From positions 9,081,501 through 9,145,500 of the forward strand of contig CM048850.1 of the NCBI GenBank assembly GCA_026545225.1: a DNA stretch of 64,000 nucleotides, read 5' to 3'. A program made the translations under genes and the position numbers. Shown here piece after piece: positions 26,859 through 63,992 of this stretch (position 1 is its first letter; the number at the start of each line of letters is the position of its first letter). The notes beneath the pieces are model-generated. The model worked only from the letters and a program-made list of their open reading frames with translations. It made no database searches and was not told the origin of the DNA. The DNA comes from Cornus controversa (lineage: Eukaryota; Streptophyta; Magnoliopsida; Cornales; Cornaceae).

Positions 26859-29141
26859 TGTCAGGCCCTGATTTTCGATTCCCAAAAACCAAAGGTGAAG
26901 CTGTCCATTAAGCCCTAATGAACCATCTTAGCCTTTCAATTACTACAGAAGCTTAACTCTAAACACAACATTATCTAAGCGTATACTCATTACCACTCAT
27001 CCCAATGGGCCCCACATTAGTCGATACACCCATATATGTTCACTCCTATTCCAAAAATCATGAAACTCCATCTCAGCCCAGTTTTGGTTGGTTGACACTA
27101 CCCTCCGGTCGGCTGAAACTTGGGTTCAGCTAACCTCCAGGTACCAATTCTGTCAGTCGACTGGAGAGCAGCTTTGGTCAATTGAAAGGATGTTTCAACC
27201 GGCTGAAGCCTTCCTCCAGTCGTCTGAAATTGGTCCCCAATTTACAATGTTAGGGATCTCACACTTTCGGTCAGCTGCCGCAGATAACTAGGCGACTGAA
27301 AGTGCCCAGAACTCCCAAAACTTGTATTTCTCATGTCTAATTTCAATCTAAAGCCTCATACAGTCATCCACAATTCTAAACATAGATGAAACTCATAAAA
27401 GTCCATACATTCATGCCTCATAGCTGCAAAATCTAAACATCCCATAAATATTATTCGAAAACATATACTTTAACATGTTTCCTTCAAGCCCTTAACCATT
27501 CAATTCAAGGAACAATATACATCTACATGAATGTATGTCGCTACACTGCATGTCACCTTTGACATTTACAAGTTCATTCAATGCCATTTTAAGTTAAGGA
27601 TAATACATTAAATCACATATCAAGCTTAGCAATTTAAAACACGTAAGCAACAAGATATGTATATGTTCTCATTCTTGGCCCTAATCCGATACCCTACATG
27701 ATTGGTCTGCTCCGAGGATCATGTGACCTTGGACACCTTTGATGGCAACCGTATGATCGGGACAACTCTGAAGGATCATACCACCTTGGCAGTGTGTTGG
27801 TTTGCTAAAATATGAGTAGACAACTCCGAGGGTCACTGGCTTTGGGCATACTCCGATTCTAGGCTTTATACTTGGTATGATGGGACCACTCCGAGGGTCA
27901 TACTTACTGGATGATTATATCACTTCTCGTGGCACGGTTGGACCACTCCGAAGTCCTGTGCACATTCCTTGTACCATTTCCCACAATGCCTCATATATTC
28001 ACTGTAAACATATATAATGTATATCATGTCGATTTCATGCTCCTTTCATGATCATCAAAGCTAAGAGAGTATCTAGCATGCATTTCATTATCTTACACCA
28101 CATATAATCACATACATGTCATAAAACTTGCATATCATTCACATATGTCCATAATTTCTAATTTAGCATATATTATTCGTGCTTCACCCAATCCATACAC
28201 TTGCTACATGTAATTAATATACATCTCACACTACATCATCTACACATAATCACATACATGTTCATTATTACACATAATCACATATGCACATAAAATTAGC
28301 ATATAGGTATTCATACTCTCAACTTCGCACATTGTACATACTAGCTCCAAATGTTACACATATCACAAGGTGCATCAGTTTTGAATAGAAAAAACTCAAT
28401 AGAAGTAGAAAACATCAAATCCCACCCTTCTCACCACTCTCATTCATGAAAACACATCATACACCTCACCATTTCACCCGAAACCCTAGAATCGACACTT
28501 AGAAAAGAAGGAGAACCTCTACTTCAAATTTGGAAGCTTTCAAGAAACTTTCAAGAATTTAACTGAGGTATATCTTTCTAAAACACAAGTTGGTTTAGTT
28601 CAAACCGAAGCCCTAGCCGCCCTCTACATGTTTTTCTTCTTCGATGAATCCCAAATCCAAGCCGAAAGCAACTGAAATGTAGAGCGAAGGTGGAGGGATG
28701 AAGATGGGAGAGATGAGAAAGAGAAACAGCCATGAGAAAATGGTTGAGATCTCTCAGCCCTTGATATATATAATATCTGGGGTGCGAAATGACTAAAATG
28801 CTCCCGAGCCACTTAACGTACCCTCTTGACCTCCGATTTTGAAAGTTCCTACGGATTCGAAATCACTTCCTTAACTCTCTAAACATTTTACTTAGGCCAA
28901 AATCAAAAATAATTATTTTCTAAAAAAATTTCAAATTTTCAGACCCACTTGGGCGCATATCGGGGCCCGTTGACCCAAAAAGTCAAACTTCCTAAATATT
29001 TTCAAAACTTCCTAAAACCTCTATTCAACTTCCCAAACATGTTTTCCGCATTCTAAACATGCCCAAACATCATTAAAATGTATTTAAGGTAGTTATGATG
29101 CATAAAAGGAAAACCGGCCAAAATTGGTTGCAGTCTCTAGA
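26859..29141 (-). repeat. Family X 3' LTR of element A
   Basis: About 2.28 kb. On the minus strand it follows a polypurine tract (AAAGGTGGGGAGG, about 29145-29157) and ends CTGACA at 26859. It includes a CT-rich leader, ACTCCGAGG-type internal repeats (27700-27960) and a palindromic word array near its 3' end. Start and end agree with other X LTRs in the window. Confidence 0.8.
27107..27300 (-). promoter_or_regulatory. Palindromic word array (TTCAGCCGGCTGAA type), LTR A
   Basis: Variants of one dyad: GTCGGCTGAA, TTCAGCTAA, CAGTCGACTG, GGTCAATTGAA, TTCAACCGGCTGAA, CAGTCGTCTGAA, GTCAGCTG, GCGACTGAA. Centres near 27110, 27129, 27158, 27181, 27200, 27221, 27274 and 27293. Steps are mostly 19-23 bp. 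Function unknown. Confidence 0.75.
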
Positions 29142-29479
29142 AACCTCCCCACCTTTAAGGAATTTCATACTCGAAATTAGAAATATACCTCAAGTGGTAA
29201 AAAACTCTGGGTATTTTGAGTGAACTTCTTGTTCCTACTCTCACGTAGCCTCCTCGACCCCGTGATGCCTCTAAAGCACCTTAACCAACAGAATGCTTTT
29301 GTTCCGAAACACTTGCTCCCTAGAATCCAAAACCTAGATCAGTCTCTCCTCATAAGACACATCATCCTCCACCTCAAGATTTGTTACATATAAAGGATCC
29401 AGCTCATACTTTCTCAACATTGAAGCGTGTAAAGTATTGTGCACACTAGACATTTGTGGTGGCAATGCCAAGAGTATGC

Positions 29480-30526
29480 AACCTCCCCTACCCAATCCAA
29501 TATCTCAAACAAATTTATAAAATACGGTGCTAGCTTCCCGCTATGACCAAATCTCATCAAACCTCATCAAGGTGAGACCTTTAGGAAGACATGGTCTCCC
29601 ACCCAAAATGCCAAAGGTCTTCGCCTTTCGTCGGCATAGTTTTTCTGACGACTCTAAGTCATAAGCAACCGTTACCTTATAATATTTATCTTTTTTGTAG
29701 TTTCTCGGACTATATCCAAGCCTAATGCCACTGTCTCCCCAGCCTCTATCTAACAAACCGGTGAACTATAAGGCCTATCGTACAAAGCCTAAAATGGAGC
29801 CATCTCTATACTAGCTTGATAGCTATTATTGTATGCAAACTCCTCCAATGGAAGGTAATCCTCCCAACTAAAATAGAAATCAAGTGCACATGCTCTAATC
29901 ATATGCTCCAAAATTTGTATGGTATGCTCTAACTGACTAACTATCTGAGAATGGAAGGTCGTACTGAAATGGAGGTCTGTATCAAGTGCAGCCTGAAAAC
30001 TCTGCAAAAATTAAGATGTAAACCGCGGATCTCTATCGAATATTATAGAAACTGGCACTCTGTGCAGCCTCAAAATCTAATCAATGTAGAGCCAACTAAA
30101 ATTATCCACGTCATCTATCACTCAAATCAAAATGAAATGAGCCACCTTAGTTAATCGGTCCACGATGACCCAAATTATGTCGTGACTCCTCATCTTGGGT
30201 AACTCCATCACAAAATCAATAGTGACGTGTTCTCACTTCCATATAGCCACAGGTAATAGCTATAATAAATTGGCCGGTCCTTGATGCTCGGCCTTCACTT
30301 GTTAACAAGTGAGGCACCTTGCTATAAACTGTGCGATGTCCCTTTTCATGCCCTTCCACCAATACTGTCTATGAAGGTTGTGGTACATTTTTGTACCACT
30401 GGGATGCACTGCAAGTCTAGAACTATGAAACTCTTTCATGACCTCATCCCTATAAACCAATGGAGCAACCATTTTGCCTCTGAACCTCAAACCTCTATCT
30501 GAATAGACAACCCAATCTTCCATCAC
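29480..30526 (-). pseudogene. Integrase of element A (fossil)
   Basis: Reads an H-H-C-C zinc-binding region (HSSRLAVHPSGTKMYHNL, ending IARCLTC), core remnants (FQAALDTDLHFSTTFH) and a C-terminal region (SYQASIEMAPF). Typical Tekay-type integrase, with several breaks; no product expected. Confidence 0.75.
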
Positions 30527-30677
30527 TTTGCCACCCGCAATCCGAGTGTGAATACTTTCTATCTCACTATTATGCCTCTACTCCTCAACTACCCTACTCA
30601 ATAATTGTGAACAAGGTAGCCGGTTCACCACCCTCACTAAAGTACAATCCCATTTTTGAGATGTCTTCCATTATTTT

Positions 30678-31686
30678 TCACTCTCGGATAGCAGTATTAG
30701 CTAAGGTACCATGTGATTTTCTGCTCAAGGCATCGGCAACCACATTAGCCTTCCCCAAGTGATACTGAAGATTGAAGTTGTAGCCTTCCATGTACTCTAC
30801 CAACCTCCTTTGCCTCATATTCAAATATTTTTGTGTAAAAAGGTAATTTAAGCTCTTATGATCGAAGAAAACCTCAAACTTCTCCCCGTACAAATAATGT
30901 CTCCACATTTTTAATGGAAAAATTACCGTTGCTAACTCTAAGTTGTGAGTTGGATAATTTTGCTTATGGATCTTCAATTGTCAGGAACTATATGCAACAA
31001 CCCTCTCGGTTTGCATTAGTACACATCCCAATCCATCCCGTCAAGTGTCATAGTAGATAAACCACATTTAGGAATAATCAATATAGGAGCACTAGTCAAT
31101 CTACTCTTCAGTTCCATAAAAGAATGCTTGCAAGTATCATTCCACACAACCTTAACTCATTTATAAGTAAGCTTGGTCATCGGCGCCGCTAAATTTGAAA
31201 AATCCTTTAAGAAACACTAGTAATATCTTGCTAATCCCAAGAAGCAACAAATTTCAAATACGTTCTTAGGCCTTTCCCAATTCATTATCGCTTCAATCTT
31301 CGAAAGGTCTACTGAAACTCCTCCTTCTAGCACCACGTGTCCTAGGAATTTCACTTCTCTTAGCTAAAATTTGCATTTTTCGTATTTGACATACAACGGT
31401 GCTCCCTCACAATCTGCAATATCGTTCTCAAGTGGATCTCATGTTCCTCTATAGAAGAAGAATACATAAGAATGTCATCCACAAATACCACCACGAACCT
31501 ATCCAAGTAGACACTAAAGACTCAGTTCATTAAGTCCATAAACGCCACCGGTGCGTTCGTCAAACTAAATGGTATCACTAGAAACTCATAGTGGCTATAT
31601 CTAGTCCGAAAAGTTATCTTCGGAGTGTCTTCATCCTTTACCCTTAGTTAATAATACCCTGCCCTCAAATCGATCTTCAAAAAGAA
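30678..31686 (-). pseudogene. RNase H and reverse transcriptase end, element A
   Basis: RNase H motifs [32 protein letters not shown] and [16 protein letters not shown] are clear. Reverse transcriptase remnants continue to about 31686, where a plus-strand LTR fragment lies. Broken. Confidence 0.75.
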
Positions 31687-32640
31687 AGTCGAATGCGGGG
31701 AACGTGTTTAGAAGGTTGGGATATGGTTTTTGGAAGTTTTGGGGACTTTTAGAAAAAGTTAACTTTTTGGTCAACGGGAGCTCCGGGATGAGGTCAAGTG
31801 AGTCCGAAAATTTTGAAAAAATTCTGGAAAATTTTATTTTTGATTATGGACTAAAAGAAATGTTTGGAGTGCCATGGAAGTGATTTCGAGTCCAACGGAG
31901 CTTTCGGGAATTAATTCAGAGGTCGGGAGGGTATTTTAAGGGACCGGGGGCAAAATGGTCTTTTCACACCCCAGGAGTGATATAAATATCAATTAGGTCT
32001 AAGATATATCACTTTTACAGATCTTCTTCTCTCTCTACCTCTCCCATTTCATCTCTCTCCCTTCTCTCTAGCTTTTGAGGGCCTTAAGGTGTGATTTTCA
32101 AGAGGCCAAAGAAGGGAAGTGTGTAGGGGACTCCAAGGGCATCGGTTTGAACCGAACAAAGTTGCGTTTTGGCAAGGTTGACATCGCTGGGATTTTGGTG
32201 AAGTGCTTGGAAAGCCTTCAATTTAGAGGTAGGGGTGCTAGACTCATTTCTACTTTGATCTTATAGGTCATTTTCTATGTAGTATGAAAGATAGCTTTGG
32301 ATTTCTTGAACCTAGGATTATGTATATGTGTATATATGTATCCAATTGTGAATTTATGCATATATAAATGTCTAGCATGTTGGTTATGATTTATATATTT
32401 TGTGTATGTGCAAATAAGACTATGAATACTTTTGATGAAAAATGTGCTCATTTGATTAAGGCATGAAAAATCTGAGTTTTCATAAACTATGCATGAAAGA
32501 TGTTATCTTTGCTTGTAAAATGCATAAGCATAATGACTTTCATGATGTGAGCGTGTTGACATTGTGAAAATCTTGAGGTGGAAGGAAAAATGCATTGATT
32601 TGATAAAATGCATAGCATTGATAAATTTTTGGTAGTCTAT
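31687..32640 (+). repeat. Family X LTR fragment embedded in element A pol
   Basis: Opposite in orientation to the surrounding pol. It aligns with the X LTR at 61529 from about +90 onward: GGTCAACGGGAGCTCCGGG, a CT-rich leader (32030-32070), and TTAGAGGTAGGGGTG at about 32223. Both flanks are reverse-transcriptase sequence of element A. Confidence 0.75.
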
Positions 32641-32659
32641 ACACAACCGCAAAGATTCG

Positions 32660-33130
32660 TCCTTCTTCTTGACAAAGAGTATCAGAAGTTACGATGCTAT
32701 AGAGATAGGCATAGTACCAGGAGCTAGATCAATGCTAAACACTACATCTCTCATCGGAGGTAACTCTGTCAAGTCCCTCGGAAACACATCTAAGAACTCA
32801 CAAACCACTGGTGGAAACCCTCTACAAGTCACATCCTCATCCTCCTTAGCTAATATGATAGCTGAGAAGTATCCAGCCCCATCCCAAATACCAAAATTAA
32901 GCAATGATGGAATGTAGAAATCATTCCGTTCTCTTACAAAATAGAAGCAATCACCCTCGGGTGTGTATCTTGTCACTCTCCTACGGAGACAATCAATCAT
33001 GGCTCTAAATGTAGACTGCCAATCCATACCTAGAATGACATCGAAAGCGGTCATATCTAGCACCACAAAGTTGAACACTAGTCGACGTCTCGCAACCTCG
33101 ATCTTGCAAGATCGACACACTATACCTAGT
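32660..33130 (-). pseudogene. Protease and start of reverse transcriptase, element A
   Basis: Reads LDMTAFDVILGMDW, the retropepsin C-terminal region of Tekay-type elements, then GFPPVVCEFLDVFP leading to the reverse transcriptase start (ELPPMRDVVFSIDLAPGT). Fossil. Confidence 0.75.
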
Positions 33131-33199
33131 GTAACTCTACCTCCAACACATGTATCAATGCTGACTCTAGTGATGACACCTCCAATTCTAAGGCAAGAG

Positions 33200-34519: not shown

Positions 34520-34583
34520 TTTTACTATATACAAAACAAGAAAATTTAATACCAAGCACATTCATATATATGTCATTGATAAG

Positions 34584-35750
34584 TGTTGAATGTTAGACAT
34601 TCTCGTGCCTTTACTTATATATTTTGATCCCATAGCTTCACATATTGTATAGTTTTTACATGTTTTTATGTTTTTGATGATTTCAGGTTCAAACTTAGAA
34701 TGTGGCATAATTTGACTCCTTTATCAGTTCAACATTGCATTCCTATTTCCTATCATACTTCATGGAAAGTCTACATCAAAGAATAGTGAATGGCGTGTCA
34801 AGACTGGAGTCAGAAAGCTGAAGTTTTGAAGATCTGCAGAAGAAGGAGAGATCGATGCATCGAAGTGCCCACTTCGATTCATCGCAGCTTCGATGCATCG
34901 TCCAAGCTTACAGAAGATATTTTTCTATAGATATTTTCTTCACTTGCCACTTGTCCAATTTTGCTTGGATAAAGCCTTGAACGAAATTTCTGTGATATTT
35001 TGAGCCTTAAATCAGATATATAGCTAGAGAATATGTAATAAAGATATATAACAATTTTCTTGTAAGAGAGAGCATATATATAATTCTAGAGAGAGAAAGT
35101 GAAGTTTTAGAGAGGGAAAGCTTCAAAGAGGGTTTTGTAAGGCCTTGAAGACCATTTTGAGCATGGGACCACCTCTACATATGGAGTGCTTCCAGCCCAC
35201 CATGATCAACTAATCCTTCTCTAGGGTTTTGACAAACCCTAGCTTTGTAAATATATTCTAACTTCAATGAATTGGAGATTTTTATGTATTTTGTGTATAT
35301 GTCTTTTACCTTGAGCCTTATATGAATATAAGTTTATAAATTCTTCATTCTCATGTGTTGTGATTTATCTTCTTGTCTTAGAATGGTTAAATTCCTCACA
35401 TGATCTTCAAACACTTGTAAGTTTAACAAGGACTACAAGTGATGGCTTAAGACTAGTTTTCACTATAACATGCATAGCTAGATTTGCATAGTCCATCTTT
35501 AGAGACGGTGATTTACTACACTTAGGTAGTTAGATAATTAGGTAAGTAGGTAGGTAGGGAAATCACACTTATCGAAGATGGATTATAATATATTAAGGTG
35601 TGTGTATTCTCTTAGCGACGTCGTTGTATGTGGGACTTGTCAACGCGTCATTTAGTTTACAATTGCATGAATTCCCCCAATTTATTATAAGTGTGACATA
35701 CTACAAGGCTAGTGGTGAAGTCTAACCCTAGTCCTTTACTCTTCTCTCAA
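34584..35750 (+). repeat. Athila-like LTR fragment
   Basis: Starts TGTTGAATGTTAGACATTCT. Its downstream blocks (a 'GGTGAAGTCTAACCCTAGTC' phrase, repeated GTAGGTAG, leader-like CT and GA runs) parallel the Athila-type LTRs at 48398 and 55342. No gag/pol or primer-binding site of its own. It sits between the gag leader of element A and an X LTR, and the right edge is abrupt. Confidence 0.65.
34853..34900 (+). promoter_or_regulatory. Palindromic word array (CGATGCATCG), Athila-like LTR
   Basis: Perfect CGATGCATCG at 34853-34862 and 34891-34900, with the variant CGATTCATCG at 34875-34884 between them. Centre steps are 22 and 16 bp. An ATATATAG TATA-like box lies about 120 bp downstream. Confidence 0.75.
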
Positions 35751-37862
35751 ACACCGCAGAAGCATAGTTCACATGCATGCACGTATGTATGTACAATGTA
35801 GACCTAACCAACCTTAATGGGCCCCTCAATCACCCCCATTCACTTGTCTATCTACCAACCCTTATCTATGATTTACAATACATCATAATTCAGATTACGA
35901 TGTATCGAACATGTATCAAAATACAATGTTGAGCCCTCAGGAGTTTGAACCAAATTTTCTGCAAACATTACAATATATCTTCCTTAAGTATTATGATGCA
36001 TCGTAATGAGGATTACGGTACATCATAAATCCCCTACTGTCAATTCTACAAAAATTTTTGCAGTTGGACCTTTGATTCCTCTGTATCCCAACTTCATTCT
36101 AGTGACCTAGGGTCCACTATACAACATTCAAATTATAAATGAAAGGTATTCCATCATATGTGAGAAGGAGCTCCACTTGGATGCTCAAGTCCTATCCATC
36201 GTAGGTGTCTTATTTGTAAAAAGGTTTGGGGGAAAGGGGGTGAGTAACTTAACGACTCAGTAGGAATACTCCAACCCTCTTACGCATCGATTCCACACCG
36301 ACCTACGTAAATGTATGTCACTACATTACATGTCACATTCAACATTTACAAGTTCATTCAAAGCATTTCAAGTTAAGGATAATGCATTAAATCACATATC
36401 ATGATTAGCAATTTAAAACACATAAGCAACAAGATATGCATATGTTCTCACTCTCGGCCTTAATTCGGTACCCTACATGATTAGTCTATTTTGAGGATCA
36501 TGTGACCTTCGACACCTTCGATGGCAATTGTATGATCATGACAACTCTAAAGGATCATACCACCTTGGCAATGTGTTAGTTTGCCAAAATATGAGCGGAC
36601 AACTCTAAGGCTCACTAGCTTTAATGATACTCCAATTCTAGGCTTTACCCTTGGTATGACAGGACCACTCTGAGGGTCATACCTAATGGATAATTATATC
36701 ACTTCTCGTGGCACGGTTGGACACCATTTCGTGCAACCCCTCATATATGTAATGTAAACATATATAACATATAACATGTCATTTTCATGCTCCTTTTAGG
36801 CTCATTGATGCTAAGAGAGTATCTAGCATGCATTTCATCCTCTTACACCATATATAATCACACACATGTCATAAAATGTGCATATCAATCACATATGTCC
36901 ACAATTTCCAATTTAGTATATATTATTCATACTTCACCCAATGCATACACTTGCTACATGTAATTAACATACAATTTCACACTACATCATCGACACATAA
37001 TCACATACATGTTCATTATTGCATATAATCACATATGCACATAAAATTAGCATATAGGTATTCATGCTCTTAACTTCACACATTGCACATACTAGCTCCT
37101 CATGTTATACATATCACATGGTGGATCAATTTTGCATAGAAGAAACTTAAGAGAAGGAGAACCCCTACATCCTACACCTCACCATTTTATCCAAAACCCT
37201 AGAATCGACACTTAGAAGAGAAGGAGAACCCCTACATCAAATTTGGAAGGATTTCAAACAATTTTCAAGAGTTTTACCGAGGTCTATCTTTCTGAAATGA
37301 GAGTTTGTTTGGTTTAAAACGAAGCCCTAGCCGCCCGCTACGTATTATCCTTCTTTGGCGAATCCCAAATCCAAGCCGAAAGGAACCGGAATGTATAGAG
37401 AAGGTGAAAGGATGAAGATCGAAGAGCAGAGAGAGAGAAACCGCTGTTAGAAAATGACTGGAATCTCTTAGCCCTTGAGATTTATAATATCTGGGGCACG
37501 AAATGACTAAAACGCCCTCAGGCCACTTAACGTACCCTCCCAACCTCCATTTTTGATTTTGAAAGTTCTTACGAACTCGAAATCACTTCCTTAACTCTCT
37601 AAACATTTCATCTAGGCTAAAATCAAAAATAATTATTTTTTGAAAAATTTCCTAATTCACGGGCCCACCCGGCCACGTCTCAGGGCCCCGTTGACCCAAA
37701 AAGTCAAACTTTTCCAAATATTTCCAAAAATTTCCAAAACCTCTATTCAACTTTACAAACATGTTTCCCACACTCAAGACGTACCCAAACACCATTAAAA
37801 TGCATTTATGGCAATTATGATGCATAAAAAGAAACCAACCAAAGTTGGTCACAGTCTCTACA
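35751..37862 (-). repeat. Family X LTR copy C
   Basis: Begins on the minus strand TGTAGAGACTGTGACC at 37862. Its 5' two thirds match LTR A closely. Its last part (36300 down to 35870) is unrelated to A but shares a CTCACCCC block with the LTR at 61529. It is therefore a mosaic of two X LTR types. The 3' end is cut by the Athila-like piece. Confidence 0.7.
35870..36032 (-). promoter_or_regulatory. Palindromic word array (ATTATGATGCATCGTAAT type), LTR C
   Basis: Variants: ACAATACATCATAAT, ATTACGATGTATCGAA, ATTACAATATATC, ATTATGATGCATCGTAAT (35990-36007), ATTACGGTACATCATAA. Adjacent pairs are about 22 bp apart. It is in the same part of the LTR as the arrays in A and D but uses a different word. 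Confidence 0.75.
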
Positions 37863-43083: not shown

Positions 43084-43096
43084 GCTCTGATACCAA
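43084..43096 (-). promoter_or_regulatory. Primer-binding site (tRNA-iMet), element B
   Basis: TTGGTATCAGAGC on the minus strand, two bases inside the LTR end (TGACA at 43099). It fixes the orientation of element B. Confidence 0.88.
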
Positions 43097-43098: not shown

Positions 43099-43770
43099 TG
43101 TCACACCTCAATTTTTGACTCCCAAAAACCAAACATGAACCCATCAATTAAGCCCTAATGAACCCTCTCAGCCTTTCAATTACCGCGAAAGCTTAATTCT
43201 ATGCAATTATGTAAGCGCATATTCATCACCATTCATCCCAATGGGCCCCATATTAGTCTATACATCCATATATGTTCACTCATATTCCAAAAATCATGAA
43301 ACTCCATCCTAGCCTATTTTTAGTTAGCTCACACTAACCTCCGATCAGCTCAAATCTGGGTTCAGCTGACCTCCAGGTACCAATTATATCGGTCAATTGG
43401 AGAGTAGCTTCAGTCAGCTGAAAGGATGCTTTCAGCCGGCTGAAGCCTTCCTCCAATCATCCGAACCTAGTCCCCAATCTACAATATTCGGGATCTCACA
43501 CTTTCAGTTGGTTGCTGTAGAGAACTAGGTGACCAAAAGTGCCTAGAACTCCCAAGACTTCTATTTCTCATATCCAATTAGAATCTAAAGCCTCATACAC
43601 TCATCGACAATTCTAAACATAGATGAAACTCATAAAAGTCCATACATTCATGCCTCATAGATGAAAAATCTATACATCCCATAAATATAATCCAAAAACA
43701 TATACTTTAACATGTTTCCCTCAAACCCTCAACCATTCAATTCAACGAACAACATAAATATTTACATGCA
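43099..43770 (-). repeat. Family X 5' LTR of element B (3' part)
   Basis: Ends TGTGACA next to the primer-binding site and is closely similar to 26859-27530 of LTR A, including the same word array. Its outer part is missing beyond about 43770. Confidence 0.75.
43340..43520 (-). promoter_or_regulatory. Palindromic word array (TTCAGCCGGCTGAA), LTR D
   Basis: Contains the perfect 14-base palindrome TTCAGCCGGCTGAA at 43431-43444. Variants are centred near 43346, 43365, 43396, 43417 and 43458. Steps: 19, 31, 21, 20, 21 bp. Confidence 0.8.
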
Positions 43771-44154
43771 TACTTATAACAAGTCCTTGTCTCAAGTTTA
43801 CACCCCATTGAACACATTCTCAATATCCAAAATGTCATCCTCAATATTTATCCAAAATGGGACCCTTACGGGACTTGGTAGTACTGTCTGAAGAGGTAGC
43901 AGTGTGGGATCATTGGAATTTATTTTCTATTCAGGTTGTGAGATAGACTTGTAGTATTTTGAGAATTATAAGGAAGAACTATATTTAACATTATCTTCCA
44001 ATGTAATAGAATGCTGTATTGGACTTTATGTAATTAAAGGACTGTTTGGAACTTTAGAATTCTCTTTCTCTTATTTTTTTTAATTTTATTTTCTTTGTTT
44101 TTCACATCTTGGATTTCTCTTCGAAAATCTAGGGTATGACACTTACAATCAACA
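43771..44154. repeat. Unassigned LTR-like scrap
   Basis: Non-coding, ending AGGGTATGACAC, which resembles a gypsy LTR 3' end on the plus strand. No other parts seen. Confidence 0.4.
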
Positions 44155-47508: not shown

Positions 47509-48392
47509 AATGCATGTCTAGATTCTGGACTATATACATGTTATAAACTTATAACGACCATTTATGTTTTGAGAACATGTATCATTTATGCTTTATGGTT
47601 GTATACTCTTAAATACAGATTTTAGTGTATGTTGTTCATGACTTATGATTTTATACATTGTAAGCATGGTGTTGATCATGGTAGAATGCTAGATGTTTAA
47701 ATGATGATCTATTCATTTTTGTTAATTTCTACATGTATAAACCTGTGAGAATGGTTGTATTGATGTATATGTGAAGTATAATGCATAGGTGTGTTAATGT
47801 GGAACATTGGACCAAAAATGACCCAAGTGAGGAGTTGCAAGATTTTCTGTAGGGACAGGTTTGATTGTGCGAAATCCTTGTTTCACATGATTGAGATTTT
47901 TGATTGTGTGAAACATCAATTTCGATTGTACTAAAAATTACAAGGTTGTGGACTGTCAAAAGTCCCAAGAGTTCCGATAGTACTTCGCAAGTCATTCGAT
48001 AGAACCATAATTATGTGAACCATTTCGATTGTTCAAAAATATATTTTTGATTGTATGAAAAACTGATTTTGATCGTGTGAAACCAGCACAGACTGTATTT
48101 GTTCAAGGGACTTATATATGTATACTTCCAATGTAAAGTATGTGTAATAGACTTGAATTAATTAAGTGTGAATGATGATAATGGTGTAAAGAAGGCTTTT
48201 GCTAGACTTTGAGATCACAACTTAGTATGGTTGATCAATGTGACATATTTGGGAATGAATAGACATGTTGATAAATATAAAGAGTTCCATTATAGATGAT
48301 GATCTCGGTGTTCTGGGTAGGAACCGAGGAAGATGTTAGTAGTAATTTGTCATGGTTATCCGAGTTGTGGAGTGACAATCGAGCAACCGTAA
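47509..48392 (+). repeat. LTR F, left part (split by the Athila-type element)
   Basis: Non-coding. Reads into the Athila-type insertion at 48393 and resumes at 56719-56783, ending GCGTGACA as gypsy LTRs do. It contains a word array and the TATA-like TTATATATG near 48110. No coding part of its element is present. Confidence 0.55.
47859..48083 (+). promoter_or_regulatory. Word array (TTTTGATTGTGTGAAAC type), LTR F
   Basis: Copies start near 47860, 47898, 47920, 48023, 48045 and 48067, with one inverted at 47881. The last three are exactly 22 bp apart. A second pair (TTCCGATAG, ATTCGATAG) at 47972 and 47994 is also 22 bp apart. A TATA-like box lies about 25 bp downstream. Confidence 0.75.
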
Positions 48393-48397: not shown

Positions 48398-49875
48398 CGA
48401 TCAGCGATGAATGTTACACATTATAGCCTCTTGATTTGCATATTTTATTCTCTTAGTGATAGATTATTTTGTGATTTTACTTCGTTTTAGTATTTTCAGG
48501 GCCTTAATAATTATTTAAGTTAAAACCATGATTTTGGGCTTTTAAAGATGACATGCAAGATGGTTAGATGAAGTCTACTTCAAATGGATCCATTCACTTT
48601 TATATTTCAACTCAAATCAGTCTAAGGAAGAGGTCCAAGAGAAGTACAACTGCTTAAGGAGGTTACGGGCCTAAAGCCCAATTTTGTGCTTAATACAATT
48701 TTAATCCCATTTTGGAAAATAGGCCAGAAGTCATATTTTCGAGCTCAAATAGACTTAATTTCCTTTTGGTTGCACAAAATTCGATTCTGGACACTTTTGT
48801 ATTTCATAAAAAATTCATGAATCGGACTTTTAGTGGATCAAAATTCAGGCCGAATATTAGTAGAAAAACCTACCTGTTTAGTGCTGTGGGAAACCCTAAT
48901 TATTTCCTAATTGGATTAGGACTTTGGTATTCTCTTGGTACATAAAGTGGCGAATTGGAGGCTATTTTGAGAGAGCTTGGATAACCTTTGTATAGATTAA
49001 AAGACATACTTTGTATAGATTTGGAGTGGAGAACCATTAGTGAACGAAGTCTTACGCGTATTTCATGAAGATGATGCCTTCTTCCTCAACCGTTGAAGCT
49101 TTTTTTTCTATTATGAGCAGCTAGTTTATCCATTAGGGTTTTGATGTAGCCCTAACTAAGTATAAATGGTTTGATTATTTTAATTATTGGGGATTTTTGT
49201 ATACATGTATAGATTGTGTAATTTAGAAGATTCTTTTTACAGAATTGAGCTATAAAAGTCTTATAAATTTAGTTTCAATGATTTCTTATCTTGTCTTAGA
49301 TATATAGTTGTTATTGAACTCAATCCCTCTTATTTTTTGTGATTATGAGAGTGATTATTACACAATGGTAATCACTGAATATATCATTAAAAGCTTTGAT
49401 GGAGTATGCTTAGAGAAGATGGACCATACTGCACCCTAGAGTAGAGTAGTTAGGCAGATGGCCCATGCCAATCGAAAATAGTCCATGACTTAGACTCAAT
49501 CATATGTTATCTTCTTGATGGATGAAGGTGAGTTTGTAGCCACTGACACCACTTTTACATGATATAATTCCCCATAGTTAGTTCAATTGACTATTAATTG
49601 TGAAGTTAGTGGTGAAGTTAAACACCCTAGACTTATCTCATATTTTCTACACTCATTATTTTCTTTTGTTTTATTTTAATTTCTTCTTTAATTTTGTTAG
49701 ATATAAAAATCAGCAACCTATTCTTTCTAAATTTAATTAGAATTAATTTCGTATACCAACTTAGTTAGACCATAATCCTTGAGGTTCAACACCCCTTTTG
49801 ATAGCTCTATTCTACAAGGAATTCGTTCTATTGCGAAGTGTGGTAATTTTAATTGATACACTTACCAATGAATCA
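48398..49875 (+). repeat. Athila-type 5' LTR
   Basis: 1478 bp, ending AATCA just before the primer-binding site. It is about 100 bp longer than its partner at 55342-56718. Shared blocks include TATTTTATTCTCTTAGTGAT near the start and ACACTTACCAA at the end. Confidence 0.85.
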
Positions 49876-52099: not shown

Positions 52100-52320
52100 G
52101 AGCTCTCGGTCTACCTTGGACGATCACTAGGCCAAAAATACAAGTCTCGATCGACCTTGGGCGATAGAGGCTCTAATAGGCATCAGTAGGGGGATCGATT
52201 GCCCCTATTTTTTTTCTTACATGGCGAGGCCAGCAGGTGGGCGATCGATCACCCATTGCTGGGGGATTGATCGCCCAAGTGTAAATAGGGGCTGCTCGAA
52301 TTTTTCTTAGATATATATAA
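52100..52320 (+). promoter_or_regulatory. Word array and TATA box ahead of ORF2
   Basis: GGGGATCGATTGCCCC (centre 52196), GGGCGATCGATCACCC (centre 52246) and GGGGGATTGATCGCCC (centre 52268) are one near-palindromic word. Earlier CGATCGACC-like variants lie at 52117-52165. The last two centres are 22 bp apart. TATATATAACCCC follows at about 52311, and ORF2 begins some 340 bp downstream. This looks like an internal promoter. Confidence 0.65.
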
Positions 52321-55330: not shown

Positions 55331-55341
55331 GTTTGGGGGTG

Positions 55342-56718
55342 TGATCGACGATGAATGTTATGCACTCTAGCCTTTTAATTTGCATATTTTATTCTCTTAG
55401 TGATAGATTATTTTGTGATTTTACTTCGTTTTAGTATTTTCTATATTTTCAGGGCCTTAATAATTATTTCAATTAAAATTATGATTTTAGGCTTTTAAAG
55501 ATGACATGCAAGATGGTTAGATGAAGTCTACATCAAATGGATCCATTCAAATTTATATTTCAACTCAAATAAGCCCAAGGAAGAGGTACAAGAGAATTCC
55601 AACTGCTTAAGGAGGTTACGGGCCTAAAGCCCAGTTCTGTGCTTAATATAATTTTAATACCGTTTTGGAAAACAGGCCAGAAGTCATATTTTTGAGCCTC
55701 AAATCGACTTAATTTTCATTAAACTTGAATGAAATTCGATTGTGGACACTTTGTATTTCATGAAAAATCCATGAATCGGACTTCTAGTGGGTCAAAATTT
55801 AGGCCGAATATCAGTAGAAAAACCCACCTGTTTAGTGCTGTGGGAAACCCTAATTATTTCCTAATTGGATTAGGACTTTGATGTATTCTCTTGGTGCATA
55901 AAGTGGTGAATTGGAGGCTGTTTTGAGAGAGCTTGGGGAGCCTTTGAACAGATTAGAAGACATACTTTGCAGAGCTTTGGAGTGGAGAACCATTGGAGAA
56001 CGAAGTTTTAAACCATTGGTTTGATTGTTTTAATTATTGGGGATTTTTGTATACATGCATAGATTGTGTAATTTAGAAGATTCTTCTTATAGAATTGAGC
56101 TATAAAAGTCTTATAAATTCAGTTTCAATGATTTCTTATCTTGTCTTAGATATTTAGTTGTTGTTATTGAACTCAATCCATCTTATTTTCTGTGATTATG
56201 AGAGTGATTATTACACAATGATAATCATTGAATATATCTTTAAAAGCTTTGATGGAGTATACCTAGAGAAGATGGACCATACTACACCCTCGAGTAGAGT
56301 AATTAGGCAGATGGCCCATGCTAATCGAAGATAGTCCATAACTTAGGCTTAATCATATGTTATTTTCTTGACGGATGAAGGTGAGCTTGTAGCCACCGAC
56401 ACCACTTATGCATGATATAATTCCCCATAGTTAGTTCAATTAACCATTGATTGTGAAGTTAGTGGTGAAGTCAAACACCCTAGACTTATCTCATTTTTTC
56501 TACACTCACTATTTTTTTTTAATTACTTCTTTAATTTAGTTAGATATAGAAATCATCAATCTATTCTTTCTAAATTTAATTAGAATTAATTCCGTATACC
56601 AACTCATTCAGACCATAATCTCTGAGGTTCGACACCCTTTTTGATAGCCCTATTTTGCAAGGAATTAATTCTATTGCAAAGTGTGGTAATTTTAAATGAT
56701 ACACTTACCAACGAATCA
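55342..56718 (+). repeat. Athila-type 3' LTR
   Basis: 1377 bp, starting TGATCGACGATGAATG directly after the polypurine tract and ending CGAATCA before the CACCT duplication. Confidence 0.87.
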
Positions 56719-56783
56719 CACCTCACTATCTGGGATTCGGGCTTGGACTGGGGGAGTCCTGGCGGTCTGAATTTCAGAGCGTG
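56719..56783 (+). repeat. LTR F, right part, with right target duplication
   Basis: CACCT (56719-56723) repeats 48393-48397. The sequence then continues the interrupted LTR and ends GCGTGACA. Confidence 0.6.
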
Positions 56784-57112
56784 ACATGTTGTTTAGGAGA
56801 TATGCAGATACAAATTTAAACACACAAGGGAAGCTTCGTTGGATTAGCTCTGTATTTCTGTGTATTTTTGGGCTACATTGTAATCTAATTTTTTCAATGG
56901 GTTTGGTTATAATTGTCTAGGTGGTTTTGTCACGAATTGCCAAATGGGGAGATTGTAATATATAATTTTGTAATTGGCATATTTCGATGATCAAAACTTG
57001 ATTGATCGAGTTGTAATTTTTTGTTTTATTTTATGTATCGATCATTAGCATCTTCAAGTTGACACTTAAGTGCATTAAAATAGTTCAATCTAATCAATTT
57101 CTATAGACCTTA
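56784..57112 (+). mobile_element. copia 3' end and LTR start, plus strand
   Basis: A short 3' internal piece, polypurine tract (GCCAAATGGGGAGATTG, 56939-56955) and about 155 bp of LTR starting TGTAATATATAATTTTG. It aligns in inverted orientation with 58195-58460. Confidence 0.7.
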
Positions 57113-58307
57113 ACTTGTGAGTTGCGCGGTGCGGAAGTGGTTGCGAAAGTAATTTAAAACCTAGAGGGGGGTGAATAGGTTCGCTAGATCGTTTGCTTAA
57201 TTTTTTAAATAAATTCAATTTTATGCCCAATTAATAGTTAATCAAACGAATAAAGTAAGTAAATAAAAGAAAGTGCAAGTAATATAAAGAAGGCACCAGA
57301 TATATGTGGAAAACCAAAATTGGAAAAAAACCACAGGAGAGGCAAAAAGCCTCAGGAAACTAATTCATTATAATGAAGCAAAGTACAGTAGCCTCTGTCT
57401 CAGACTCATACCCATCTTCATTCTGTTAATAATCTAATACGGAACACCTCAGGCTTACAATTGTGACTTCAGGTCCAACTGCTGCAGACTTTCAGCTAAC
57501 GTCACGATCCTAACAGAAAGGTTGGTAGAAGAACAAAAATACTCAACAAGTATCTTGTTCCCTTCGTAGTGCGATATGGGTCACCTTTCTTCTTCAGCAA
57601 GTAATAGAAGAACCACAAATCCAATGCTCTAATCAGCCAGATAGTTTGATGCAGTCTCTGAATAGCCAATTAATAGAAGAACACCATCCTAAATATCACT
57701 CGTGAATAATAGATTTGTGCTTTTAGAATATAAAAAAATATTTTGCCCTAATTATACTGAATATACTTTCTCTCTCTAAAAATATTAATTCTTCAGGCAT
57801 ATCTGTAAAGAAAACATATATACATATGTATAGACAAGGGAGTCCTAATCCTACTTGAAAAATAAGTTAAAGACCACTATAGAACTGTCCTAGAAGTTTC
57901 AAACCCAATAGGAATCAGAATTTTTGTCAAAAATAATTTCTTAGCTGGAACAGGCAAAATAGGATCGATGCCCAAATACTAGGACCGTGGGACTTTGTGA
58001 ACACCTGCAGAAACAAAAGTACCAAACAAAGTTGGCCCGGTCCCGCAAAATGGGGACCGGTCCTATTTTCAAAAATCCTATGTTTTCCAAGAAACCCTAG
58101 TTTTCCAAAAGAGGCTTAGAAATAAAGTGTAATGTGTCACCCCCATACTTACCTGTACTATATGATGTTCTTCTTGACATAATTACTTCTATGCACATGT
58201 GTATCAGCTCGAAGATGTTAATGTTCGACACTGAAAAATAAATAGAAAATTATAACTCAATTAATCTAGTTTTGAACACCGGCCAATTATAAAATTACAT
58301 CTCACAA
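57113..58307 (-). repeat. copia 3' LTR, minus strand
   Basis: About 1.2 kb. On the minus strand it follows the tract TTGCCAAGGGGGGATTGTG and contains the phrase CCTATTCACCCCCC. It ends GCGCAACTCA, like the copia LTR at 12420-12445. TATA-like TATACATATGTATATATG lies near 57825. Confidence 0.78.
57962..58064 (-). promoter_or_regulatory. Palindromic word array (GGACCGGTCC), copia LTR
   Basis: GGATCGATGCC (centre 57966), AGGACCGTGGG (57986), GGCCCGGTCCC (58038) and GGACCGGTCC (58058, perfect). The two pairs are each spaced 20 bp. A TATA-like box lies roughly 120 bp downstream on the minus strand. Confidence 0.75.
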
Positions 58308-58849
58308 TCCCCCCCTTGGCAATTTCGTGACAAAACCACCTAGACAGCTATAACCTAACCCATTGGAAAAATTATATTATAATTTGCCAAAAAATACACA
58401 AAAATAAAGAGTTGATCCAATGAAGTTTCACATACGTGTTTAAGACTGTTAGAAGTAAAACATTTATATTCACATCACTTAAACAACATAACCTGTGAAA
58501 AGCTTAATAAAGAAATATAATAATAATATCAATGCTCCCCCCTAAATAGAAATATCCTATAAAGATATCTCCCTTGTTTTGTAACAAATTGACAACTGAA
58601 AACCAAAGAGAGTAATATAAATAAGATTAGCAATTAATCATACAGAGAGAATAAGATAATATCATAGCAAAAATATCATCATCATTGATTAAATAAAATT
58701 GCAAAACATAGTAATAACATCAGTTGATGAAATAAACAAAACATAAAAAAAAAATCTGGACATCATCGCTAAACAAGTCATAACAAGTCTAGAACAAAAC
58801 AAAACAAGGCCTACAACCTGTCTAATCCTCATCATCACTATCATCAGCA

Positions 58850-60140
58850 TCATCAGCAACAGTAGGGTCGATCTTATCTATACAAGCATGAACTCTATCA
58901 AACCCTTGCTGCATGAACCTCAAAACTTGGTTCATCTGATTTGCTGTCACTGGTTTGTCAGTCGCAAGAAGCTAAAAAACTTCACAACCTCCCAACATAG
59001 CCTATCCAGCTCCTTCACTGAGCTCATAAGTCATCTTATCATTTTCCTTCTTGTTCATCGAACGAGTAATCGAAGTAGAATTAATTACTCTTTTCGATCT
59101 CTCGATGTCTGCTATTTGGAATAGGAACCCTAGCAGCCTTCAGAATAGCCATCACAATATGTGAGAAAGGCAAGGTAGATGACAACCTAGAATGAAAAGT
59201 AACTAGTATCATGGTACACATGATTGTAGCGGGAAAGTTGATGGGATCCTCCCGAACAATGTGGTATAGCATCTCAGCATGACTCTTGATCAAATTCCTT
59301 TGTGGTCTTGAGGGTCAAGATTATATGAGACCATCAAGTTCAGTATCGAGACATTGTGTGTGAGGTAGAGGAAAGGCAACCTATTTACTAGTCTTGGGAC
59401 ATTGGGTATGCATAAGTCCCTAATCATATCATCCATGGCCGGTCGGTTTGGATCCTCAATTTGATAGGGTAAGTCTATGCATCCTCAATCTTCGCTACAC
59501 CTAGTATATTTGAAATGATGTCCTTGGTAACCTCAATTTGAAGGCCATAACACTTGGTTACAAAGGTTAGGTGATCCATGTTTGATGTGATCACATTACC
59601 ATAGAAATATCTCACCATATCCTACTTGACTATCTCCCGAAGATCACACAATGACTCCCAACCATTATCTTCAAAGTACTTGAGAAACTCTAATTGTCAC
59701 CCTTGTTTGATTGCCACGAGATTAACCTTCCATTCTATCCTCATAGCCCAGCAAGCAATGACATTTAGGAGATTGTTGAAGTTGAAGTTGTATTCAAACA
59801 TATCCCAGGTAAAGATAATGCAGTTCTCCGCACTTACCAAAGAAATATCTCATTATATCTGGCTTTATTATCTCCCGAAGATCACACAATGACTCCTAAC
59901 CATTATCTTCAAAGTACTTGAAAAACTCCAATTGTCACTCTTATTTGATTGCCACGAGATTAACCTTACATTCTATCATCATAGCCCGACAACCAATGAC
60001 ATTTAGGAGATTGTTGAAGTTAAAGTCGTATTCAAACATGTTCCAGGTAAAGACAATGCAGTTCTTCGCACTAGTTGATGCCTCAGTGTGTCCCCGTTTG
60101 CGTGCCATAAGAACCACGATGAACGGAACCAAGAAAAGTG
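58850..60140 (-). pseudogene. ORF of the 'putative plant transposon protein' type
   Basis: Starts MARKRGHTEASTSAKNCIVF near 60111 on the minus strand. The domain shows further on as SHAEMLYHIVREDPINFPAT, LPFSHIVMAILKAARVPIP. The end is acidic (Asp-rich, near 58850). A CT-rich leader (60300-60440) precedes the start. Function unknown; position suggests the third ORF seen in SIRE-like elements. A 240-bp direct duplication lies within it. Broken. Confidence 0.6.
59598..60077 (-). repeat. Direct duplication, 2 x ~240 bp
   Basis: 59598-59837 and 59838-60077 are adjacent direct copies, by eye about 90% identical, both containing ATCTCCCGAAGATCACACAA and TTTAGGAGATTGTTGAAGTT. Confidence 0.85.
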
Positions 60141-60470
60141 TCAAAAGTTCCATTGAGTCAATTTATCGAACACTTGGTGTGGAAAGCAAAAATCCCCAAA
60201 TTTCAAAGAACTTTGTTTGTTCAAATCACCATAAATATCAACAAATCAACCACAATCCTCCAAACACTTCAATCCCAACCTCCAACAATCAATCAACCAC
60301 AAGAAAATAGAGAAGAAGAAGAGTATGTGAGATTTTGAGTGTTTAGGTATATGAGTGTGTATGGAGAGCTTGAGAGCTTGAGTGAGAGTAAAGTGTGTGC
60401 GAGAGAGTGAATAAGATTACAAGCCAAAACACAGGCGCACAAAAATGCTTAGTTTTGGGCATCCGCTAAG

Positions 60471-60567
60471 TGCGATCGATGCTCATATATGAGGACTGGT
60501 CCAACATTTTTTAGGATCTCAGAAACTGTAGAAGTGCGATCGGTCCTGATATTTGGGGACTGATCAT
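60471..60567 (-). promoter_or_regulatory. Palindromic word array (GGACTGGTCC/GCGATCGGTCC), copia internal
   Basis: GCGATCGATGC (centre 60477), GGACTGGTCC (60497), GCGATCGGTCC (60541) and GGGACTGATC (60561). Both pairs are exactly 20 bp apart. The word family is the one in this element's own LTR (57962-58064). It lies just upstream of the leader of the ORF. Confidence 0.75.
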
Positions 60568-62785
60568 ACTTTGTGAATTTTGAAAAATTTCACTTTGTAC
60601 CTCAATTCACCAAAAACATCATCTCAACCTATTTTAGCAATTAAGCACCTAAAATGTTAAAAATAAACAACATAAAATTCAACTAAAACAAAATAACACA
60701 AAAAATATTCATAAATGCAGAATTTAAAACCCATAATTTGTCAATAAAATTCATCCTCAAATGCATGATCATGACACAACTTCAAATGCACAAATATTTT
60801 TAAAAATTTAGAAATTCATCTAACAAATCCATGTGTGTGTGCAATCGAAAATCATAAAAAATTAATCAAATTTCTTTGATTCATCTTTTAAAACATATTG
60901 GATGATAAGTAAATAGAACTACACATGATCAACTTAATTTTCACTGAATTTCACACTTTATTTTTTATTTCTAAGACGGTAGCTTTCACGCTTATGGGCA
61001 ACCAGATATTTCCTCAAAACAACTTCTTTTTAAAGATATCTCAGTGGAGATTTATGTTGTAGTGTTAGCTTTGAACAAATCCCGAACATAGCCTTTTCCT
61101 TTTGTCTTAGATTTTCAGCAATTTTTCATTTTTTTTTCTTTTTCTTTTCATGCTGAATAAAAATAGAATATTTTCTTTTTATTTTATTTTATGATCATTT
61201 AAGCTTTCAATGGTACTCATATAATATACTCTAGTCAACTTCACAATAGTTTTCAATCAATTTTCTCAAAGTTGAACTAGTGCACAAATTGTATGAATTC
61301 AAAAAATTCACCTCTAAAAATAAATAAATACAGTATATTAGTCATCAATACTTAGATCATAAAATCAAGCATTTCATCCAATGACAAATTAAGTGTCTCA
61401 ATCATACATTCACAAATCATAGTGAAATAAAAATAAATATAGAGAATTCACATTATTTTTTAGAAAAACATGATTCTCATCATCTCATATGATTATAACA
61501 AATAAACAAAACCAAAACTAAAAGATATTGTAGAGACCGTGACCAACTTTGGCCGATTTTGCATTTTTCGCATTATAATTGCCATAAATGCATTTTGAGT
61601 GGTGTTTAACATGTTTTGAGTGTGGGAAACATGTTTGGGAAGTGTTTTTAACATTTTGGGAAGTTTTCAAGAGAATTGGAGAAGTTTGACTTTTTGGTCA
61701 AACCGGGGCCCGGGGTGCGACTTAAGTGGGCCCGGAAATCCGAAAAATTCTTGAAAATATTTATTTTTGAGAATGGCTGAGATGAAATGTTTAAAGAGTA
61801 GAGGAAGTGATTTCGAGACTGTAGGAGTTTTCAGAATCGAAAAAGGAGTCCGGGAAGGTACGTTAAGTGGCCCGGGGGTATTTTGGTCTTTTTGCAAACC
61901 CTAGATATTTTAAATATCAGTGGATGAGATTCCCAGCCATATCTCATGCCTCTTTCTCTCTCTAAAGCTCTCCATCTTCAAAGCTCTCCCTTCTCTCTAC
62001 ATTTCGGACCCGTTAGGCTTGGATTCAAGACTCGCCGAAGGAGGGAGATATGTAGGGGACGGCTAGGGCTTCCCTTTGAACCGAAAAAAGTGGTGATTCG
62101 GCAAGGTAGACTCCGCTGGAAAATTGGTGAAGTGCTTGGAAGGCCTTCATTTTCGAGGTAGGGGTTCTTCTTCTCTTCTAATTGTCGATTCTAGGGTTTC
62201 GGGTGAAGAAGAGAGGTGTAGGTTATGTTTCACATGCTTTAAGATGGTGAGAGGTGTGGAAAGTTGTATTTTCTTCTTCTCTAGAGTCCTATCTTTTCAC
62301 AATTGTGTATATTGTGTTGGTGGTAGCATGTGGGTTTGAAGCATGTGAGTGTAAGAAATTGATACATAGGCTTTATGTGTTCAATTTGGTGTATATGTGG
62401 AAAAATGTGTACCAAGTGTCATATATGTGATTATATGTAAAAATGTGGTTGTTGAATGCATGTTAGTTCTATGTGCTAAAATTTATGCATTGAGTGTAGC
62501 ATGAGTAAAATATGCTAATTTTGAAGTTGTATGCATATGAGATGATATATGCATGTGTTATACATATATGTGCTATATGTGGTGTGTGGTGGTGGAAAAT
62601 ATGCTTATTACTTCTTTTTAGTATAAATGAGCATGAGTTGAGCATGAAAATAAAATGCCATGTGTTTATGCATTCATATTGCATATGTGGGAAATTACGG
62701 AAAAATGACGCAAAAGAGATGCACGGGGCTTCAGAGTGGTCCAACCGTGTTGTGAGATGTGGTAAAATTACCCACTAGGTATGGC

Positions 62786-63055
62786 CTCGGAGGGGACCCG
62801 CCATACCAAGGCTTAATTCCTAAGATCGGAGTATGTCCAATACTAATGACCCCTCGGAGTTGTCCCGGTCATAGGATGGTTATCGAAAAATGTCCAAGAT
62901 TTGTGAGCCTCGGAGTTGCCCCCTCACTCCATGGCAATCCCATATATTGCTATGGTAGAATGACCTCTCGGAGTTGTCCCGGTCATTGGATGGTTATCGG
63001 AGGTGTCCAAGGTTACATGATCCTCGGAGCGTACCAATCATGTAGGGTATCGGAT
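62786..63055 (+). repeat. CTCGGAG internal repeats of LTR E
   Basis: CTCGGAG occurs at 62786, 62853, 62909, 62967 and 63023, plus ATCGGAG at 62825. The last four are 56-58 bp apart, within a repeated phrase CTCGGAGTTGTCCCGGTCAT. Equivalent CTCCGAGG blocks occur in LTRs A and C. Confidence 0.8.
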
Positions 63056-63881
63056 GAGGACCGAGAGAGAGAGCATTTACTTCCTTAATGCTTGTATGTT
63101 TGAACATGTTATACATGATTTGTGATATGTTCAATTCTCTTAAATTGCTATTATTGATGTGTTTGTGAGATTGTGGACGTGGCATGTAGTGTATTCATAT
63201 GCATTTCATGTCGGGTCGGCACTTAGAAGGGTTGGAGAACCTTTACTGAGCTGCAGTGGTGCTCACCCCTTTATTATAAACTCTTTTACAGATAAAGCGC
63301 CGATGACGGATGGGACATGAGTGTCCAAGTGGAGCTCTAGTGGTGTTTATGCTATCTTTTGGATGTTGAGCATTTTGTGGCTATCCATGCCGGCTTGTGG
63401 CATGGGACTTATGTTTTGAGTTGTGGTTGTACTTTGGACATATGTACTTTTGATGTATGTATTGGATTATAAACTTGTTGGATGTGAAAGGACAATGGTA
63501 TAATATGTGTAGCGCCCATGGTGGCATTTTATTCATTTTGATGATGTTTCCATTTTGAATGGGTTGTGTGCGTGAAAGAAATGATTCATTTTGGTGTATG
63601 AATTCAATTATGAAAGTGATTTGAGTGTGATATTGGTGTTATGGAAATGAATTTGGGAATTAAGGATGGTTTATACACTTGAGTTTTGGGTGTATTGTGA
63701 ACCTAGGGAAATTTCTATGATTATGCAAGATTTGAGATTCAAATGTATAGGTTGATGTGCGAGTATGATTTTATATCAATGGTAGATGATTTATATGAAA
63801 TATGAATGATCTAAGGTGGTTTGGTTGAGATTTGGGTTCAATTTGATCTTGTATAGGTGTTTGGGAATTTCCGGGCAGTGC

Positions 63882-63992
63882 ATTTCGATCAATCGAAATG
63901 CCCATTTCGATTAATCGAGATGCCCATCTCGATTGATCGAAATGGTTGCGAGATTTTATGTATTTTTAAGCTTTATTTCAATTAATCGAAGT
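63882..63992 (+). promoter_or_regulatory. Palindromic word array (ATTTCGATCAATCGAAAT), LTR E
   Basis: ATTTCGATCAATCGAAAT (63882), ATTTCGATTAATCGAGAT (63904), ATCTCGATTGATCGAAAT (63926) and ATTTCAATTAATCGAAGT (63975). The first three are set exactly 22 bp apart, with the 4-bp spacer GCCC. It may continue past the window end. Confidence 0.88.

Follow-up and report, generated by a model that had tools for sequence, protein, structure and literature searches.

What keeps a short palindrome in a regular array when the word itself differs from one retrotransposon family to the next? The question is raised by a 64,000-nucleotide stretch of the Cornus controversa genome (771.7 Mb), C6:9081501-9145500 in contig CM048850.1 of assembly GCA_026545225.1, here called the window. 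An initial annotation had listed at least nine clusters there, each repeating one near-palindromic word at a pitch of 19-23 bp, in many unrelated retroelements including copia. It had read them as sites for dimeric DNA-binding factors on one helix face, or as RNA hairpin arrays. We find that the palindromic arrays are real and widespread in this genome, and more ordered than was first seen. Our strongest finding is that words are switched in place: arrays that are homologous and can be aligned base for base have different words, with changes on both arms at several sites.

The words are grouped in classes 1 to 7, and individual loci are given by L numbers. That word identity turns over while the layout is kept, as the initial annotation proposed, is seen on homologous backbones. 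The long terminal repeats (LTRs) of the arrays at 27107 (class 1) and 35870 (class 3) are 81.6% identical over 1627 bp, on one flank of the arrays only. Between the LTR of L045 (class 4) and L050 (class 2) both flanks match, with 78.3% identity over 217 bp and 69.2% over 412 bp. Further class 2 loci were taken as the first 20 distinct TTTCGATGCATCGAAA places on C1 by coordinate (20 of 147), without the place of L050. Eighteen of them match chromovirus-like LTR references, one matches the 34853 unit, and one matches no reference. The best reference for four of the 20 (L071, L074, L084, and L085) is a class 3 LTR (L048 or L022a), and these four are 76-80% identical to L048 outside the words. Five words of L048 carry the diagnostic A and T. 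At the corresponding places both arms read T and A in four words of L071, three of L074, three of L084, and two of L085. Among the remaining eight words, one is unchanged, three have one arm hidden by gaps, and four differ on one arm only. In L074 the spacers align with those of L048 and the words differ; the last two words are separated by CCAACA in both. Because L074 and L085 agree at 93% and L071 is a relative, the switching events may be few. From these alignments, the direction of switching appears indistinguishable, as does point change from a short conversion tract. L048 and L051 were also considered as a switching pair but were discarded, since their aligned segment and the arrays are not collinear. 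The class purity of half-sites within arrays (0.893 against 0.71 permuted) was set aside as partly circular, because the class word itself was used to find the words.

The step lengths were measured in two sets. The first contained 23 chosen arrays, three of them from the window and some interrelated, with the word supplied. Its 109 steps included 46 of exactly 22 bp and 64 of 19-23 bp; 19 were of 15-18 bp, nine of 40-52 bp, 12 of 60-80 bp, and five of other lengths. The second set was the 20 class 2 loci, all of which have at least three words at quantised steps. TTTCGATGCATCGAAA had 109 matches at these loci; scrambled words, of which 200 were tried, averaged 3.6 matches and reached at most 51. 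Among the 89 steps of this set, 40 were of 22 bp, 17 of 16 bp, five of 18 bp, four of 20 bp, nine of 71-75 bp, and nine of 82-83 bp. The steps are thus quantised without a single pitch, 22 bp being dominant and 16-18 bp second. The proposed 19-23 bp pitch describes 64 of 109 and 45 of 89 steps, but leaves out a second class at 15-18 bp (23 of 89 steps in the second set) and the longer gaps. A step of 16 bp is about one and a half turns, and therefore the sites face different ways. With 16-18 bp steps as the second most frequent class, the idea of one helix face fails. A frequent layout consists of two sub-arrays with 22 and 16-18 bp steps and one longer gap between them, and in the first set the 22/16-18/22 layout with a long gap is common to arrays of differing words. 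There are about 3-8 sites per array, and the L045 LTR has eight words (at most 5 mismatches in 16).

To judge the arrays against chance, clusters were scanned with a single 12-bp palindromic word (4096 words, minus low-complexity and GC-poor ones), requiring at least three matches in 180 bp and a score of at least 3. The controls were mirror words, three composition-matched types of non-palindromic word, and dinucleotide shuffles. The blind scan recovered five of the nine listed clusters at this score (27105, 34852, 35875, 52191, and 63885). It missed 43340, 47859, 57962, and 60471, for which support comes from relatives and is uneven. The nine near-palindrome clusters do recur at the places listed, but only these five were flagged blindly. 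At a score of at least 4 the window had 16 palindromic clusters, several of them in satellites, against 13 for mirror words, 4, 5, and 6 for the matched controls, and none in shuffles; at score 3, mirror-word clusters outnumbered palindromic ones (34 versus 25). Because mirror clusters nearly match the palindromic ones, these statistics were not used as proof, and the signal from the window alone is weak.

Outside the window we scanned 19 readable 10-kb pieces (~190 kb), hand-picked blind; a 20th piece, L020, was all N. At a score of at least 4 they had 18 palindromic clusters against 34 for mirror words and 8, 14, and 10 for the matched controls. At a score of at least 8 there were eight palindromic and nine mirror clusters, and 0, 3, and 0 for the matched controls. 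The mirror clusters at this level are telomere-like and satellite repeats, and two of the three matched-control clusters are shadows of these same arrays. The eight palindromic clusters have the words GCGATCGATCGC, GGGATCGATCCC, TCGGTCGACCGA, ACGATGCATCGT, TCGATGCATCGA (twice), TTGATGCATCAA, and TCAGCCGGCTGA. Dinucleotide shuffles of these pieces, 25 in all, yielded on average 0.48 clusters at score 4 and no cluster at the higher scores of 6 and 8. Six exact words from the window were also counted genome-wide and compared with the same letters reversed: TTCAGCCGGCTGAA 67 versus 1, TTTCGATGCATCGAAA 147 versus 0, TTACGATGCATCGTAA 636 versus 0, GGGGACCGGTCCAAC 678 versus 0 (both strands counted), GGGCGATCGATCGCCC 1550 versus 0, and TTTCGATTAATCGAAA 1396 versus 0. 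These counts are driven by element copy number, and show that the words are exact and shared.

The arrays sit in fewer kinds of element than first claimed. The 63882 family is young, the LTRs of L045 and L047 being 99.4% identical over at least 2805 bp, and has a Met-type primer site. The adjacent open reading frames (ORFs) of L045 encode gag, protease, reverse transcriptase (RT), RNase H, and then integrase domains, so that RT precedes integrase. The family is classed as Ty3/gypsy and chromovirus-like. The Tekay label of the initial annotation agrees with the gene order and the primer site; the chromodomain match of L045 is below threshold (16.7 bits, cut-off 25.1). The array of this family lies about 375-620 bp before the LTR end, and chromovirus-like arrays overall lie roughly 240-620 bp before the LTR 3' end. 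The 63882 LTR has relatives in the LTRs of the arrays at 27107, 35870, and 43340. The array at 47859 probably belongs with them, as judged from a forced alignment and from what may be a pair of LTRs 7.6 kb apart.

In a second group the arrays are internal. The array at 52117 lies between an LTR pair; L011, a relative, has its array 425 bp upstream of an ORF that matches PF20167 with 41.5 bits. A single element type carries both the 57962 and the 60471 array. Among the 40 matches listed for each, copies are paired about 2.3 kb apart at C1:22.84, C1:98.80, C2:85.66, and C6:40.43 Mb. GGACCGGTCC occurs in both arrays of this type, and in L053 and L006; the L053 array is 487 bp upstream of a PF20167 ORF (87.1 bits, cut-off 45). 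From these matches, 52117, 57962, and 60471 are grouped with PF20167-bearing relatives, whose PF20167 ORF may, from its position, be env-like. Class 2 words occur in chromovirus-like LTRs and also in L016, another RT-integrase element, downstream of the RT/integrase ORFs. No copia domain was seen among the ORFs scanned, and no copia-specific search was made. What had been described as many unrelated elements including copia are chiefly related chromovirus-like LTRs and elements with a PF20167 ORF. L060/L061 had been considered a single element with one word in its LTR and internal arrays; this reading was abandoned, as the orientation of the internal part appears to be opposite to that of the LTR-like units. 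Two same-strand matches of the 57962 type, C9:9003154 and C9:9014270, are 11.1 kb apart and could be the LTR pair of one element.

Are the words read as DNA or as RNA? Variation within words was examined in 103 words from 19 of the 20 class 2 loci, the near-duplicate L085 being excluded. The consensus letter is present in 96% of cases at positions 6-11 and in 79% at the other ten, and CpG positions are altered mostly to TG or CA; the set is biased, since a perfect copy served to find each locus and the matches allow up to five mismatches. A hairpin made by a single word in RNA would have its loop at positions 6-11, the most constant part. Alternatively, neighbouring words could pair as 16-bp stems with 6-nt loops (22 = 16 + 6) and act in packaging, in dimerisation, or as small-RNA hairpins, which has been argued for the palindromes of maize Sireviruses. 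In a first set, compensation between adjacent arms exceeded expectation both with families mixed (27 versus 15.8) and with families split (15 versus 8.9, 0 of 2000 permutations; 6 of the 15 from locus L019). The excess was not replicated in 19 independent loci (adjacent-arm 3 versus 5.8 expected, outer-arm 5 versus 6.1), and the claim of spacer-centred RNA pairing was dropped. Within-word compensation at these loci was 22 versus 17.3, which was attained in 201 of 2000 permutations. As RNA, the sense strand of the L045 array has a folding energy of -113.4 kcal/mol (z -11.2), but a strong fold is what palindrome arrays give anyway. A small-RNA excess at Sirevirus palindromes, which the available part of PMC10760457 relates from Bousios 2016, would also suit RNA-level structure. 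As to the RNA hairpins suggested in the initial annotation, one array folds strongly, and the pairing covariation was not replicated. We consider RNA-level structure unlikely, and recognition as DNA is favoured, not proven.

Two explanations that do not involve a host factor were also weighed. Slippage, unequal exchange, or template switching could spread one unit neutrally, in which case neither palindromy nor word change would need a factor. A 22-bp tandem repeat called at 63881-63944 and a duplicated module in L011 (95.9% over 123 bp, spacer included) are consistent with such homogenisation. However, duplication keeps one period and makes no dyads, while arrays with different words have the same layout of steps and long gap, and the spacers of L074 and L048 align though their words differ. 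The CpG density of the arrays is also above that of the rest at 10 of 10 loci, and CpG observed/expected at 9 of 10. Homogenisation is thus an improbable source of the arrays. The other explanation is anti-silencing of the VANC type, in which the element encodes a protein that binds its array and lifts silencing, and motif and protein change together. As far as the available part of PMC5735166 describes them, VANDAL elements likewise have arrays of short motifs in non-coding DNA, which change between families together with the element-encoded protein. They are DNA transposons whose VANC21 motifs have a single orientation and are not reported there as palindromes, whereas the motifs here are dyads. 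Outside gag-pol, L045 has three extra sense ORFs (80-106 aa) without a Pfam match, among which a fast-evolving protein could be missed. We consider this explanation very improbable.

We think it fairly probable that the arrays are cis-regulatory modules for a putative dimeric, sequence-specific DNA-binding factor. Sites of dimer type are the best reading because the dyad middle is most constant, two arrays share a word, and arrays recur upstream of a second ORF. The initial proposal of dimeric factors is therefore retained in this form, without its single helix face. Each cluster would offer about 3-8 palindromic sites to the factor, which would bind them as DNA; a site would consist of two half-sites of about 8 bp in inverted orientation. 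The arrays would most likely control transcription from two places, the LTR and a position upstream of the second ORF; arrays of the second lineage lie 425-490 bp upstream of that ORF. The grid of sites would be inherited and the word replaced at many sites, and since the replacement affects both arms, families would differ in the factor that they use or in its specificity. Conflict with a host repressor or silencing may be behind the turnover.

Several observations weigh against this reading. The 16-18 bp steps break a simple helical-phase model. Words are not clearly more conserved than spacers between classes; in the four comparisons the conserved positions were 83/112 versus 139/182, 91/110 versus 129/166, 83/104 versus 158/197, and 81/98 versus 137/176. 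The PF20167 match of L011 is just below the Pfam cut-off of 45. The L045 array folds strongly as RNA, and the arrays may be transcribed. A broader model is possible, though we hold it only tentatively: gypsy-type elements would share an inherited grid of dimer sites, in the LTR and upstream of the second ORF, and would re-key it in place when a family evades a repressor of the host or gains a new activator. The recognition key of a family would then be its word class, and one key could serve different lineages.

In the window, the class 1 array at 27105-27300 (minus strand) consists of decayed TTTCRGYC|GRCYGAAA words; its scan score is 4.5 at 27105-27227, and further words were found by eye. 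Its LTR (26871-27532) matches 43111-43771 with 84.8% identity over 665 bp. There, a second class 1 array at 43340-43530 (minus) has TTTCAGCCGGCTGAAA words with matches at 43408 and 43430 and was unflagged by the blind scan, and an exact Met-type primer site TGGTATCAGAGC follows the LTR end at 43084-43095 (minus). A cluster of this word type (score 2.0-5.7) is present in 14 of 22 LTR sequences of the 27107/43340 type and absent from eight. The class 3 array at 35873-36028 (minus) has TTACGATGCATCGTAA word matches at steps of 22, 96, and 22 bp (score 4.5), and the adjoining LTR backbone at 36303-37860 (minus) is the one that is 81.6% identical, over 1627 bp, to 27523-29139. Three TTTCGATGCATCGAAA-type words at steps of 22 and 16 bp form the class 2 array at 34850-34905 (no strand assigned; score 7.1). 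It is borne by an LTR-like insert of at least 0.8 kb (34576-35371, no strand assigned), whose relatives are 85-100% identical among the best 40 of 1362 candidates. One relative of this insert sits directly after the class 3 array in L062, and L060 also aligned. L062 has a class 3 array at 311-456 and then a class 2 array at 814-869, the second within a 34853-type insert that starts near 538. L050 also has two arrays with different words within 0.9 kb, at 1170-1352 (TCGATGCATCGA) and 1964-2071 (TCGATTAATCGA type, with TCTC...GAGA ends).

The class 5 array at 47859-48083 (plus) has five matches to imperfect dyads of the TTTCGATCGTGCGAAA type with at most three mismatches; none of its six relatives, L054-L059, has a cluster of this word at score 4. 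The LTRs of the element that holds the 52117 array are at 48399-49875 and 55343-56718 (both plus; 88.8% and 90.4% matches). Between them, the class 6 array at 52189-52276 (plus) has GGGCGATCGATCGCCC words at 52189, 52239, and 52261, with steps of 50 and 22 bp (score 4.3). Class 7 arrays of GGACCGGTCC words are at 57962-58066 (minus; matches at 58033 and 58053) and 60471-60570 (minus). For the former, L006 scores 4.3 with the same word; L053, a copy of the 60471 type, scores 6.8 with steps of 20, 44, and 20 bp. L052, which contains both stretches, has no cluster at score 4. Between these two arrays a 238-bp stretch is tandemly duplicated at 59596-60072 (90% identical). The class 4 array at 63882-64000 (plus) has TTTCGATTAATCGAAA words at steps of 22, 22, and 49 bp (score 11.9) and continues past the window (L046); L045 is a young relative of full length.

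Positions 1-11900 of the window contain a 2972-bp unit in four head-to-tail copies (97-100% over the first 300 bp). Three of these have the exact Met-type primer-site string (2056, 5028, and 8000), and the whole is possibly a tandem array of an LTR element. A pair of direct repeats at 11995-14837 (84.9% identity over 1274 bp) also contains the exact primer-site string, at 12450 in one and at 13941 in the other. In L012, ORFs at 799-2797 with a weak BED finger, DUF659, and a hAT dimerisation domain are about 2.3 kb before gypsy gag and RT ORFs.

Arrays of this general kind are known from Sireviruses. The available part of PMC2829016 describes family-specific palindromic motifs in 13 Ty1/copia Sireviruses, in LTRs and upstream of env, and their absence from the other Ty1/copia elements compared. 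There, as here, a short and CpG-rich family-specific word is clustered in the LTR, in at least eight copies; the Sirevirus elements have extra copies upstream of an env-like gene, and a place upstream of the TATA box is a further mark of their arrays. The L045 LTR has eight words and the other arrays 3-8, and a possible counterpart of the env-like position is that upstream of the PF20167 ORFs in L053 and, below threshold, L011. The Vitis word CGGTCGACCG given in that part is the core of class 1. Class 1 (CGGTC|GACCG) is the only class that fits the Sirevirus CGG-CCG core, and classes 2-7 do not; according to the same source, Tnd-1 also lacks this core. Sireviruses have integrase before RT, whereas L045 is Ty3/gypsy with RT before integrase. 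The arrays here also differ in their steps, fixed at 22 and 16-18 bp, and in words that switch on homologous backbones. By analogy, they appear to work like Sirevirus motifs but are not members, because of the Ty3/gypsy gene order and because most words lack CGG-CCG.

Repeated cis-regulatory boxes also occur as tandem activator boxes in the LTRs of the Ty1/copia elements Tnt1 and Tto1. These are similar as repeated LTR boxes, but differ in having fewer copies, other words, and a Ty1/copia setting. Retroviral dimer-initiation palindromes are short self-complementary words in a non-coding part of the RNA. They are single sites, whereas here there are arrays, also far from the leader. Sunflower Tekay elements have an extra ORF, according to the available part of PMC12844716; none with a known domain was seen in the three extra sense ORFs scanned in L045. 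Among the open-licence titles and abstract beginnings listed, there was no report of such arrays in Ty3/gypsy elements. The principle is thus known from Sireviruses, and the gypsy setting and the in-place switching appear to be new.

With these findings, arrays of palindromic motifs extend beyond one copia genus and include Ty3/gypsy elements. Now that homologous arrays are at hand in which the word is most of what differs, it becomes testable which factor reads retrotransposon LTRs, and whether its site evolves by conflict. Every word can serve directly as a bait, and every matched LTR pair as a reporter.

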